Source of the DNA: a bacterium
Lineage (GTDB): Bacteria > Patescibacteriota > Minisyncoccia > JAHIHE01 > DAOWLE01
Direction of reading: 5' to 3'
Assembly: GCA_030643545.1 (NCBI GenBank)
Contig: DAOWLE010000021.1
Span: 1-34,515 of the forward strand
Length of the DNA stretch: 34,515 nucleotides
Below, one piece after another: positions 31,264 to 34,515 of the stretch. The notes under the pieces are model-generated. The model saw only the letters and a program-made list of their open reading frames with translations. It was not told the origin of the DNA and made no database searches. Position 1 is the first letter of the stretch, and each line of letters starts with the position of its first letter. Both the position numbers and the translations under genes were made by a program.

Positions 31264-31563
31264 ATGCGAGCGAACCATAAAAAAAATTCTAAAAAATACT
31301 GGTCTGATAAAATAACAAAAAATAGCAACGCTCTTGATTTAGAGAAAGGTGTTTTTACTTTTAAGTACCCGAGAAAAATCGCTTTGTCTCTTAAAATTTC
31401 CGCCGAGGAAAGTAAAAGACGCAAAGCAAAACCGTTTCAGTCAGCTATGTCTATGCTCAATTTTTATATTAATCGCGCTGGAAAAAATTTGCCGGAAAGC
31501 CAGAGGAAAATTTTAGAACAGGCGAAAATAGAACTCCGCAAAGTTTTTAACAGAAACATTTAG
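31264..31563 (+). CDS. DUF3175 family protein
   Basis: The product, 99 residues, matches the small DUF3175 family: KYWSDKITKNSNALDLEKGVF near the N-terminus, PRKIALSLKISAEESKRRKA in the middle and the characteristic AMSMLNFYINRAGKNLPESQ near 60-80. The function is unknown; its basic nature hints at nucleic-acid binding, an inference only. It ends the GT/GH130 cassette, 15 bases after the GH130 stop, and is followed by a terminator. Confidence 0.75.
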   Translation: MRANHKKNSKKYWSDKITKNSNALDLEKGVFTFKYPRKIALSLKISAEESKRRKAKPFQSAMSMLNFYINRAGKNLPESQRKILEQAKIELRKVFNRNI

Positions 31564-31570
31564 ATATAAA

Positions 31571-31619
31571 ATTTATACAATAACTAAAAAACCCCGCAAA
31601 AATAAGCGAGGTTTTTTTA
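31571..31619. terminator. Right direct repeat; bidirectional terminator between DUF3175 and 16S rRNA
   Basis: ACCCCGC..GCGAGGT with T-runs on both strands (GGTTTTTTT on +, GGGGTTTTTT on -). It can end both the DUF3175 transcript and the convergent rRNA transcript. The 49-base unit is 45/49 identical to 28923-28971. Confidence 0.7.
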
Positions 31620-31664
31620 AATTACAATCTTGTGTGGTTGTCCTAATTGATTATAGAGACAAAA

Positions 31665-31712
31665 CAATGTTTTGCCTCTGCCTGTTTAGAAAACAGGCGT
31701 CGACACCCCATC
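31665..31712 (-). other. Hairpins in the 16S rRNA 3' flank
   Basis: Downstream of the 16S 3' end the transcript can form GCCTGTTTTCTAAACAGGC and GAGGCAAAACATTGTTTTGTCTC. They may be processing signals or part of the terminator. No tRNA and no 23S rRNA sequence is present before the + strand genes begin. Confidence 0.45.
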
Positions 31713-31830
31713 AGATAATATAAATCGAGATTTAAAATTTATCTAATAGAAAGGAGGTGATCCATCCCCAGGTTCTCCTAGGGATGCCTTGTTACGACTT
31801 CACCCTGATCACCGGTCTTACCTTAGAATC

Positions 31831-31893
31831 ATCCTCATTTTTATAAACCAATTAATTTTATATTATAAAAAACTGATTTACAAAAGAGAGGAT
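31831..31893 (-). other. Helix-44 extension in 16S rRNA
   Basis: Between the conserved ACCATCCTC and GAGGATGAT strands (which pair) there are about 45 extra A/T-rich bases. TTTTGTAAATCAGTT (31885-31871) and AATTGGTTTATAAAA (31853-31839) can form 15 pairs including wobbles, so helix 44 is lengthened by a hairpin of about 50 bases. Confidence 0.6.
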
Positions 31894-32160
31894 GGTGCTT
31901 CGGGTATTACCGACTCTCTTGGTGTGACGGGCGGTGAGTACAAGACCTGAGAACGTATTCACCGTGACATGGCTGATTCACGATTACTAGCGATTCCAGC
32001 TTCATGAGGTCGAGTTGCAGACCTCAATCCGAACTAAGACCGGTTTTGATGGGATTGGCTCCGCCTTACGGCTTAGCAACCCTTTGTACCGATCATTGTA
32101 GCATGTGTGTAGCCCAGGGCGTCAAGGGCCATGCGGATTTGGCGTCATCCCCGCCTTCCT

Positions 32161-32474
32161 CCCAGCCCTTTTGGCATTATCTTCGTAGACTATTTTTTAA
32201 ACGTTTCTTAAGATGTCCGATCACGCTGCCGTGATGCTTAAGTTTATTTTCACGAATCAAAGCGTCTTTTTTACTGCGATAAATTTCGCAATATATTAAA
32301 TTAAAAGGCGCGTAAGATTTTGTTGATAACACTTTTTTCTGATTGTGTTCATTAAATCTTCTTTTAATATTATCAGTGCTTCCAACATAAATAAAATCTT
32401 TTAGAGTGCTTTGAATAAGATAAACATAGTACATATTATTTCATTAAAAAAATAATAATGCCAAAAGGGCTGGG
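32161..32474 (-). other. GIY-YIG-bearing intervening sequence in 16S helix-40 region
   Basis: The arms ATAATGCCAAAAGGGCTGGG (32455-32474) and CCCAGCCCTTTTGGCATTAT (32161-32180) are exact 20-bp inverted copies on top of the helix whose loop is normally about nine bases (E. coli about 1165-1172). The loop of 274 bases is almost entirely the GIY-YIG ORF. The ORF stop codon lies inside the arm. No group I core or second ORF was seen. Confidence 0.8.
32177..32434 (-). CDS. GIY-YIG nuclease encoded inside 16S rRNA
   Basis: The 85-residue protein is a single GIY-YIG domain of the small UPF0213/YhbQ-like type. The motif is split as VYLIQS (4-9) and FIYVGSTDNIKRRFNEHN (14-31), with the catalytic Arg in KRRFNEH and the Glu in ALIRENKLKHHG near 62. 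It ends KKRLKNSLRR. It has no DNA-binding extension, unlike most homing endonucleases of this fold. It is in the same orientation as the rRNA, with no Shine-Dalgarno motif before the ATG. It may be a homing-type or DNA-processing nuclease carried by the insertion, or a passenger. Confidence 0.88.
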   Translation of the reverse strand: MYYVYLIQSTLKDFIYVGSTDNIKRRFNEHNQKKVLSTKSYAPFNLIYCEIYRSKKDALIRENKLKHHGSVIGHLKKRLKNSLRR

Positions 32475-32546
32475 CGGTCTCCTGTGACAAATATAACACA
32501 GGATAGGGGTTGCGCTCGTTTCCCAACTTAATGGAACGCCTCACGG

Positions 32547-32577
<31 letters not shown>

Positions 32578-32654
32578 CATCGAGTTCCTTGCGGCACTTC
32601 CTCTTTTCGGAGGAATTCTCGAGATTTCAAACCCTGGTAAGGTTCCGCGCTTAT

Positions 32655-32688
<34 letters not shown>

Positions 32689-33240
32689 AGGTCCCCGTCT
32701 ATTCCTTTGAGTTTTAAGCTTGCGCTCGTACTTCCCAGGCGGGACACTTATCGCGTTAGCTTCGACACTTGAAGGGTCGACACTTCAAATATCTAGTGTC
32801 CATCGTTTACGGCGTGGTATACAAGGGTATCTAATCCTTTTTTATGCCCACGCTTTCGTCTCTCAGCGTCAGATATGTTCCAGCTGAATGCCTTCGCCTT
32901 TGGTGTTCCCCATGATATCAACGGATTTCACCCCTACTTCATGAGTTCCATCAGCCTCTGACAATCTCTAGTCTAAACGTTTCAGATGCGGTTTCAAAGT
33001 TGAGCTCTGAAATTTAACACCTGACTATTTAAACCGCCTACAGACGCTTTACGCCCAATGATTCCGGATAACGCTCGAGGTCTCTGTATTACCGCTGCTG
33101 CTGGCACAGAGTTAGCAACCTCTTATTCCTTGGATAAGCTCAAATTAGCAGCTGATTTGTAATTGTTAAATTATATTTTTGGAGAAAAAATAGCGGGAGA
33201 CAAAAGAAAATTTATTTATCTCCCTTTTTCTTTGCTTCTT

Positions 33241-33519
33241 TTATCTTTTTAATATTATCTTTGTTTTCTTGTTCCCAAAGCTTTTCCTGAAAGTTACTCT
33301 TTTCCAATCTTTTGCTTGATATCTTTTTACGAATTCTATTCTTACTTTTAGTTCTGGAAAATCATAGCCAATCAATTCATTTGGTAATACAATAGAAAAA
33401 CTCGAAGAAAATATATTAGTCGTATTCATTAATTTTTCGTCTACATATTTTTCTATTTTATCTACTGTTTTTTTCTGTTGATCATTTGGATTTTCCAACT
33501 CTTCTGGTCCTAAAGCCAT
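33241..33519 (-). CDS. Hypothetical protein in the 16S insertion
   Basis: Starting at ATG 33519 (MALGPEELENPNDQQKK) the product has 92 residues: an acidic helix followed by beta-rich, basic C-terminus (VRIEFVKRYQAKDWKRVTF, KKTKIILKR). AAAGGAG lies about nine bases before this ATG, which decides the start over an upstream in-frame ATG at 33585 that has no ribosome site. The family is not recognised. It is last in the insertion operon. Confidence 0.6.
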   Translation of the reverse strand: MALGPEELENPNDQQKKTVDKIEKYVDEKLMNTTNIFSSSFSIVLPNELIGYDFPELKVRIEFVKRYQAKDWKRVTFRKSFGNKKTKIILKR

Positions 33520-33536
33520 TTTTCTTTTTTCTCCTT

Positions 33537-33635
33537 TTAATATATCAATTCTTTTGCTTCCAGCGCCGCGAGATGCACAGGGCATAATTGTTCACCATTT
33601 TCAGTTTGCCATACTGCTTTCAGGACATTCTTCAT
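33537..33635 (-). CDS. Possible 32-residue protein in the 16S insertion
   Basis: ATG 33635 gives MKNVLKAVWQTENGEQLCPV and continues LAALEAKELIY to a stop at 33537, 17 bases before the next ATG. An overlapping shorter ORF (33651-33601, MDVEEYEECPESSMAN) has the better-placed AAGGA ribosome site. Either one, or a frameshifted combination of both, fills the gap between the NADAR gene and the last gene of the insertion. No family is recognised. Confidence 0.3.
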   Translation of the reverse strand: MKNVLKAVWQTENGEQLCPVHLAALEAKELIY

Positions 33636-33663
33636 ATTCTTCTACATCCATTTTTCCTTTTTA

Positions 33664-34122
33664 TTATTTCCTTAACTCTTCTCTAATCTCATCTCTCACC
33701 TGCATCAATAATCTACCCAACCAATTTTCTCCTTTTTCACCCCAGAACATATCAGTCGGACTATCCTCGTGAATAACCGCATCGCCGGTTGCAAGTAATT
33801 TTTTTCGTAATTCTGGATTTTTAAATTTCGCTCTAAGCCCCTTTAGCATTACATCTACTTTCTTTGAATTCCAGTCATCAACCAATTCTTTTCCTTCTCT
33901 TAATGAACGACCTGCAATCATTGCTAAATATGGACTCGGCGCACTATTAATCCAACTTATTATGTATCCGCCTATGAAGCTTTTATCTTGTGCTTTCTGG
34001 GATTGATACCAATGCTCATTTGTCTGGTACGAAACACCATCAACCGTCTGCCAGCATCTCCAGAAATTACTAAGCCATCCATACTCCTTTCTCCTAAAAT
34101 AGAAATTTATTTCTTCTTCCAT
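33664..34122 (-). CDS. NADAR-family (YbiA-like) protein inside 16S rRNA
   Basis: NADAR proteins are N-glycosidases: YbiA-type members act on riboflavin intermediates, and others remove ADP-ribose from guanine in DNA as antitoxins to DarT-type toxins. The family pattern is clear: INFYFRRKEYGWLSNFW near the N-terminus, TNEHWYQSQKA at about 34-44, AMIAGRSLREGKELVDDW, VMLKGLRAKFKNPELRKKLL, and ATGDAVIHEDSPTDMFWG near the C-terminus. At 152 residues it is complete. AAGGA lies four bases before the ATG, and the gene follows the zinc-ribbon gene by nine bases. Its target is unknown. Confidence 0.87.
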   Translation of the reverse strand: MEEEINFYFRRKEYGWLSNFWRCWQTVDGVSYQTNEHWYQSQKAQDKSFIGGYIISWINSAPSPYLAMIAGRSLREGKELVDDWNSKKVDVMLKGLRAKFKNPELRKKLLATGDAVIHEDSPTDMFWGEKGENWLGRLLMQVRDEIREELRK

Positions 34123-34131
34123 TTTTCCTTT

Positions 34132-34365
34132 TTACAACTCCTCTTTTTTTACAAACTTTCCTAATGCTGCGTCGTAGTAAACAATATTGTCTTCCTCGTC
34201 AAACTGAAAATAAAAATGTCCACCTTTTTCATTATGCACTCTTCCGCACTCGTCACAAACAAATATTTCCTTTATTCCAAACATATATTCTATTTTAGAA
34301 ACATCCATCGTTTTTAACGCTTCTAATTCTAAGTGTCCTTTACATTTTTTATCCGAACATTTCAT
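34132..34365 (-). CDS. Small zinc-ribbon-like protein in the 16S insertion
   Basis: The 77-residue product has two metal-binding pairs, CSDKKC (3-8) and CDEC (37-40), followed by an acidic, aromatic C-terminus (HFYFQFDEEDNIVYYDAAL). This looks like a single zinc ribbon. AGGAGG lies about 12 bases before the ATG. It is the first gene after the 16S helix arm and is translated in the direction of the rRNA. Family and function are not recognised; a nucleic-acid or protein adaptor role would be typical of such folds. Confidence 0.6.
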   Translation of the reverse strand: MKCSDKKCKGHLELEALKTMDVSKIEYMFGIKEIFVCDECGRVHNEKGGHFYFQFDEEDNIVYYDAALGKFVKKEEL

Positions 34366-34515
34366 TTTTTTCTTTTTTCCTCCTTATTTTTTTAATTCTG
34401 CCATCCTTTACGGAAATGACAGAAAAGTGATTTTTACAATCACAAAACAGCCACTAATTTTGTTGTCCAAGAAAAGAACTTTACACCCCGAAGGGCTTCT
34501 TCGTTCACGCGGCGT

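Follow-up and report, generated by a model that had tools for sequence, protein, structure and literature searches.

The window analysed here, the whole stretch of 34,515 nucleotides, ends within a 16S rRNA gene that is interrupted at the tip of helix 17 (h17) by a segment containing a small cluster of genes, one of which encodes a NADAR-family protein (Table 1). This is the only 16S gene found in the host genome (0.85 Mb, 95% complete), no second copy being detected; its 3' end at 31750 has the anti-Shine-Dalgarno sequence GGATCACCTCCTTTC, while about 398 nt of its 5' portion fall past the contig end at 34515, and this missing 5' third was not found elsewhere in the assembly. Comparison with E. 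coli by blastn recovered the gene in pieces: E. coli positions 399–439 correspond to window positions 34513–34473 (88% identity), 506–1126 to 33116–32495, and further pieces to 1174–1424 and 1487–1541. Conserved 16S sequence had been claimed on both sides of the segment, and the first two of these matches bear this out; the 5' flank consists of 44 nt of 16S, after which the contig ends. Two minor features of the locus are a short A+T-rich non-coding stretch that lengthens the tip of helix 44 (31840–31890) and the lack of a 23S gene, which was found neither downstream of the 16S in the window (31500–31750) nor in the assembly.

Table 1. Features of the interrupted 16S rRNA gene (window coordinates)
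Feature	Coordinates	Strand	Description	Basis
16S rRNA gene	31750..34515	minus	Interrupted	RF00177, 933.6 bits; blastn vs E. coli rrsB pieces
Helix 40 insertion	32161..32476	minus	20-bp perfect arms around GIY-YIG ORF (32177–32434)	
Helix 17-tip insertion segment	33129..34471	minus	1,343 nt, about 67% A+T	Flank anchors vs insertion-free relatives
5' arm of extended helix 17	34436..34474	minus		RNA folding and shuffles
3' arm of extended helix 17	33126..33166	minus		RNA folding and shuffles
ORF1	34132..34365	minus	77 aa, four-cysteine (CxxxxC...CxxC), zinc-ribbon-like; AAGGAGG upstream	
ORF2	33664..34122	minus	152 aa, complete NADAR, YbiA family; E36, K43, E119	
ORF3	33537..33651	minus	Starts MDVEEYEEC with ribosome site; frame break into ...LCPVHLAALEAKELIY	
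ORF4	33241..33519	minus	92 aa, without sequence family	

Helix 17 is the gap between the first two E. coli-matching pieces, which in E. coli are separated by an interval of about 66 nt. In relatives without the insertion h17 measures about 30 nt (GGGAAAAATTTTGATATTACC) compared to 1,343 nt here, an excess far greater than the insertion of at least 100 nt relative to E. coli by which CPR rRNA insertions are recognized. This supports the original prediction of a CPR-type insertion in 16S h17; CPR-like 16S insertions are present in this tiny genome and in its class, which may point to a CPR-type host.

The ends of the segment, described originally as arms of about 36 bases able to pair over most of their length, form three helices with a small internal loop and a single mismatched base between them: an outer one of 9 bp, which is h17 proper (34474–34466 with 33126–33134), a middle one of 13 bp (34460–34448 with 33142–33154) and an inner one of 11 bp (34446–34436 with 33156–33166). 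Folding of the arms, which had been proposed as a check, gave a duplex of −35.9 kcal/mol against −13.0 ± 3.0 in 2,000 shuffles (z about −7.7), and the segment's own 3' arm was its best partner among 34 loci, all of them h17 insertions; in this set the true 3' arm ranked best 29 times and second 5 times, both energies and ranks taking in the outer h17 base pairs. For a 25-nt arm pattern the number of matches expected by chance is zero, and a search of the 34.5-kb window turned up no other copy of the arm. These statistics bear on whether the structure is an assembly chimera, a 16S fragment and unrelated DNA having been fused at the end of the contig, as the short 5' flank there and the failure to find the remaining 5' 16S might suggest. 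However, a chance fusion would hardly produce two junctions 1.3 kb apart with 33 bp of complementarity in the h17 register and with the segment's own arm the best of those available, and relatives are built in the same way at this point; we therefore regard a chimera as very improbable.

Four frames lie in the loop on the same strand, preceded by the Shine-Dalgarno-like sequences AAGGAGG, AAAAGG, AAAAGG and AAAAGGAG. Of the three or four ORFs claimed originally, three are solid while the third in order, ORF3, is broken by a frame break; it is either a decayed gene or an assembly error, and parts of the cargo may thus be decaying. Codon usage (z of 3.0 for ORF1, 3.1 for the NADAR gene and 2.0 for ORF4) gives only moderate support for coding, and promoter-like matches inside the segment are at chance level. 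The zinc-ribbon cargo that had been predicted is ORF1, which belongs to a small zinc-ribbon family also represented in other genomes of the class (pattern MKC...C.G...CD.CGR.H): a relative at locus L118 (1501–1704) has C3, C8, C37, C40, G41, R42 and H44 in common with it, and a similar protein is visible at L121. ORF4 matched nothing in Pfam, in PHROG at E<0.001 or, by tblastn, in phages, and its relatives in the class reach E about 1e-3 at best, mostly within longer or interrupted frames. A single-sequence structure model of its product (pLDDT 70) matched nothing significantly in the PDB, while the best BFVD match (E 3e-3, TM 0.66) shows a weak likeness to small phage proteins; this one model weakly suggests a phage origin for ORF4. 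For the cargo genes in general a phage source is possible, since many phages also encode NADARs (446 phage records); no relatives of ORF1, the NADAR gene or ORF4 were found among viral contigs.

The identification of ORF2 as a NADAR gene is confirmed by profile matches to PF08719 (E 7.3e-29, 101.6 bits compared to a cut-off of 35.1) and TIGR02464 (98 bits, cut-off 73.7), and by a match to YbiA (2b3w, E 2.7e-21). In an alignment with the solved structure 8bau, its E36, K43 and E119 fall on the catalytic residues, so that the protein resembles YbiA (PDB 2B3W, 8BAU) in the whole domain as well as in the catalytic E, K and E, while differing from it in being encoded within an rRNA gene and in having no RibA or DarT partner that could be found. 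The residue in the last strand, E119, is glutamate rather than aspartate or histidine, which places the protein in the YbiA family; the roles of the NADAR residues, including the aspartate variant of DarT1-linked NADARs, have been described previously (PMC11543638). NADARs including YbiA undo the ADP-ribosylation of guanosine in DNA (PMC11125620) and in RNA (PMC11833690), and from its family the ORF2 product would most likely act on RNA or DNA to take ADP-ribose off guanine. Its likeliest role would be protection from foreign ADP-ribosylating toxins.

Two other roles are disfavoured. The 95%-complete genome yielded neither DarT nor RibA (GTP cyclohydrolase II, PF00925), which argues against an N-glycosidase acting on riboflavin intermediates and, together with the YbiA-type glutamate in place of aspartate, against an antitoxin NADAR of the DarT1-linked kind; the antitoxin function suggested originally is thus not supported in its DarT form. 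More broadly, the NADAR might neutralize a DarT-like or YarT-like toxin encoded in the segment or elsewhere in the genome, given that YbiA-type NADARs counter YarT in myxobacteria (PMC11125620) and that ORF4 is small and without family. However, with no ADP-ribosyltransferase match to the ORF4 model and no DarT found when the genome was searched for that toxin, we give this little credence.

With a DNA query spanning h17, matches were obtained in 297 of 384 same-class genomes, and in about 45 of the 297 there are insertions at the h17 tip, their flanks lying approximately 75–480 nt apart as counted from coordinates. These insertions also have pairing arms but are shorter than the 1,343 nt found here, the NADAR segment being the longest h17 insertion seen and the only one with a NADAR gene. 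Five of the loops that were read code for GIY-YIG proteins (L059, L064, L068, L069, L073) and one codes for 23S_rRNA_IVP (L067), while several others contain small proteins of no assigned family that have ribosome sites (L056, L058, L062, L070). In one of these, L058, a 49-aa ORF scores weakly as MazE-like (E 0.035, well short of the cut-off) and is possibly antitoxin-like. Most same-order relatives in which a 16S was found have no h17 insertion, and one of the same order (G003, locus L056) has different cargo at the same point, a 99-aa membrane-like ORF with an AGGAGG start; this distribution suggests that the insertion is variable and probably recent.

The arm GTCCGGCCCTTTTTGG is common to five loci (L057, L063, L071, L074 and L088, families f29 and f202) whose loop contents differ. 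These loops contain several small, partly membrane-like ORFs antisense to the rRNA, and in some a TTGACAA-like sequence lies just inside the 3' arm. One arm around different contents in five other genomes is what would be expected of a mobile element whose arms are its own terminal inverted repeats, which targets h17 tips and whose cargo moves without an endonuclease gene of its own. The second insertion in the present gene, in helix 40, can be read in the same way, as its GIY-YIG protein has relatives (38–45% identical) in the h17 loops of five other genomes. However, the NADAR segment has arms that match neither f29 nor f202 and of which the window showed no other copy, and it encodes no transposase or homing endonuclease, hence we consider this explanation unlikely, though less so than a chimera.

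The usual interpretation of CPR rRNA insertions is that they are selfish introns carrying homing endonucleases. The segment could be a degenerate or unusual self-splicing intron that carries cargo and is removed by splicing, group I and II introns being common in CPR 16S genes according to the main text of a recent survey (Tsurumaki et al. 2024, PMC11270868). Against this, covariance models of group I and II introns failed to match the segment at any E up to 10, it encodes neither a maturase nor a homing endonuclease, and it occupies a variable hairpin tip between long pairing arms, whereas LAGLIDADG introns sit at highly conserved sites. A recognizable group I or II intron was rejected on the first of these grounds, and even a degenerate one appears very unlikely.

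In bacterial 23S rRNA, intervening sequences are excised by RNase III and some of them carry 23S_rRNA_IVP. The segment is likewise a stem-loop insertion with an extended stem (9+13+11 bp) at a variable hairpin, a position that fits the intervening-sequence type; a full-length gene for RNase III, with endonuclease and dsRNA-binding domains, is present in the genome; and the sister h17 insertion L067 encodes 23S_rRNA_IVP itself. It differs from the 23S examples in its location in 16S h17, its larger size and its other cargo, and in that its excision is a prediction. We propose, with a probability of roughly 0.6, that the segment is a cargo-bearing rRNA insertion whose genes are co-transcribed with the 16S and whose extended helix is probably cut by RNase III. 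A small foreign gene cluster encoding a zinc ribbon, a NADAR and a protein without family, perhaps derived from phage, would have been captured in the loop of the extended helix and would be transcribed as part of the pre-16S rRNA. A near-continuous stem of about 24 bp would let h17 form, and RNase III would cut there as it does in 23S intervening sequences, leaving a 16S rRNA in two pieces held together by h17 or, less likely, rejoined. The released loop RNA, or its precursor, would then be translated, and the NADAR product would protect the cell or the element from ADP-ribosylating toxins rather than serve riboflavin synthesis. That the rRNA locus might shelter and express this cargo, as was originally suggested, is plausible.

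The site and hairpin anatomy are of a known kind. According to the main text of the CPR survey (PMC11270868), insertions occur in 48% of 16S genes; the long ones are found chiefly at the tips or bases of stems, some code for proteins and some fit no intron family, features that the h17 segment shares. Homing endonucleases make up 90% of the annotated ORFs in 16S insertions, whereas the present segment is a multi-gene cluster without an endonuclease. NADAR is not mentioned in that text, comprehensive as the survey is, and a NADAR operon as cargo appears to be undescribed, in line with the original remark on a NADAR plus zinc-ribbon cargo. The locus indicates that rRNA loops can carry ordinary genes and not homing endonucleases alone. 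Because a multi-gene enzyme cargo lies in the only 16S detected, and because other h17 loops contain non-endonuclease ORFs with ribosome sites, it also suggests that rRNA transcription may serve to carry and express such genes. We would tentatively go further: the hairpin tips of CPR 16S rRNA, chiefly h17, might be general docking sites for cargo (NADAR, zinc ribbons, membrane proteins, small unassigned proteins, GIY-YIG and IVP) expressed from the rRNA transcript without an intron, with the NADAR guarding the translation machinery against ADP-ribosylating attack, although we hold this broader view to be doubtful. These proposals make rRNA maturation, split 16S in CPR ribosomes and the use of the loop as mRNA testable.

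NADAR genes were present in 24 of 380 genomes in the phylum set and 27 of 384 in the class set, and no other rRNA-embedded NADAR was found among the retrieved and checked loci of these NADAR-positive genomes; there is thus no evidence of selection for placement in rRNA. At L048 the NADAR gene follows a 16S gene at a distance of about 1 kb. The closest NADAR matches in genome contigs come from archaeal MAGs (42–44%) and have no neighbour in common with the present gene. Within the phylum NADAR genes are often near tRNA genes (L033, L035, L040, L044, L103, L114, L116), a placement expected of integrated elements.
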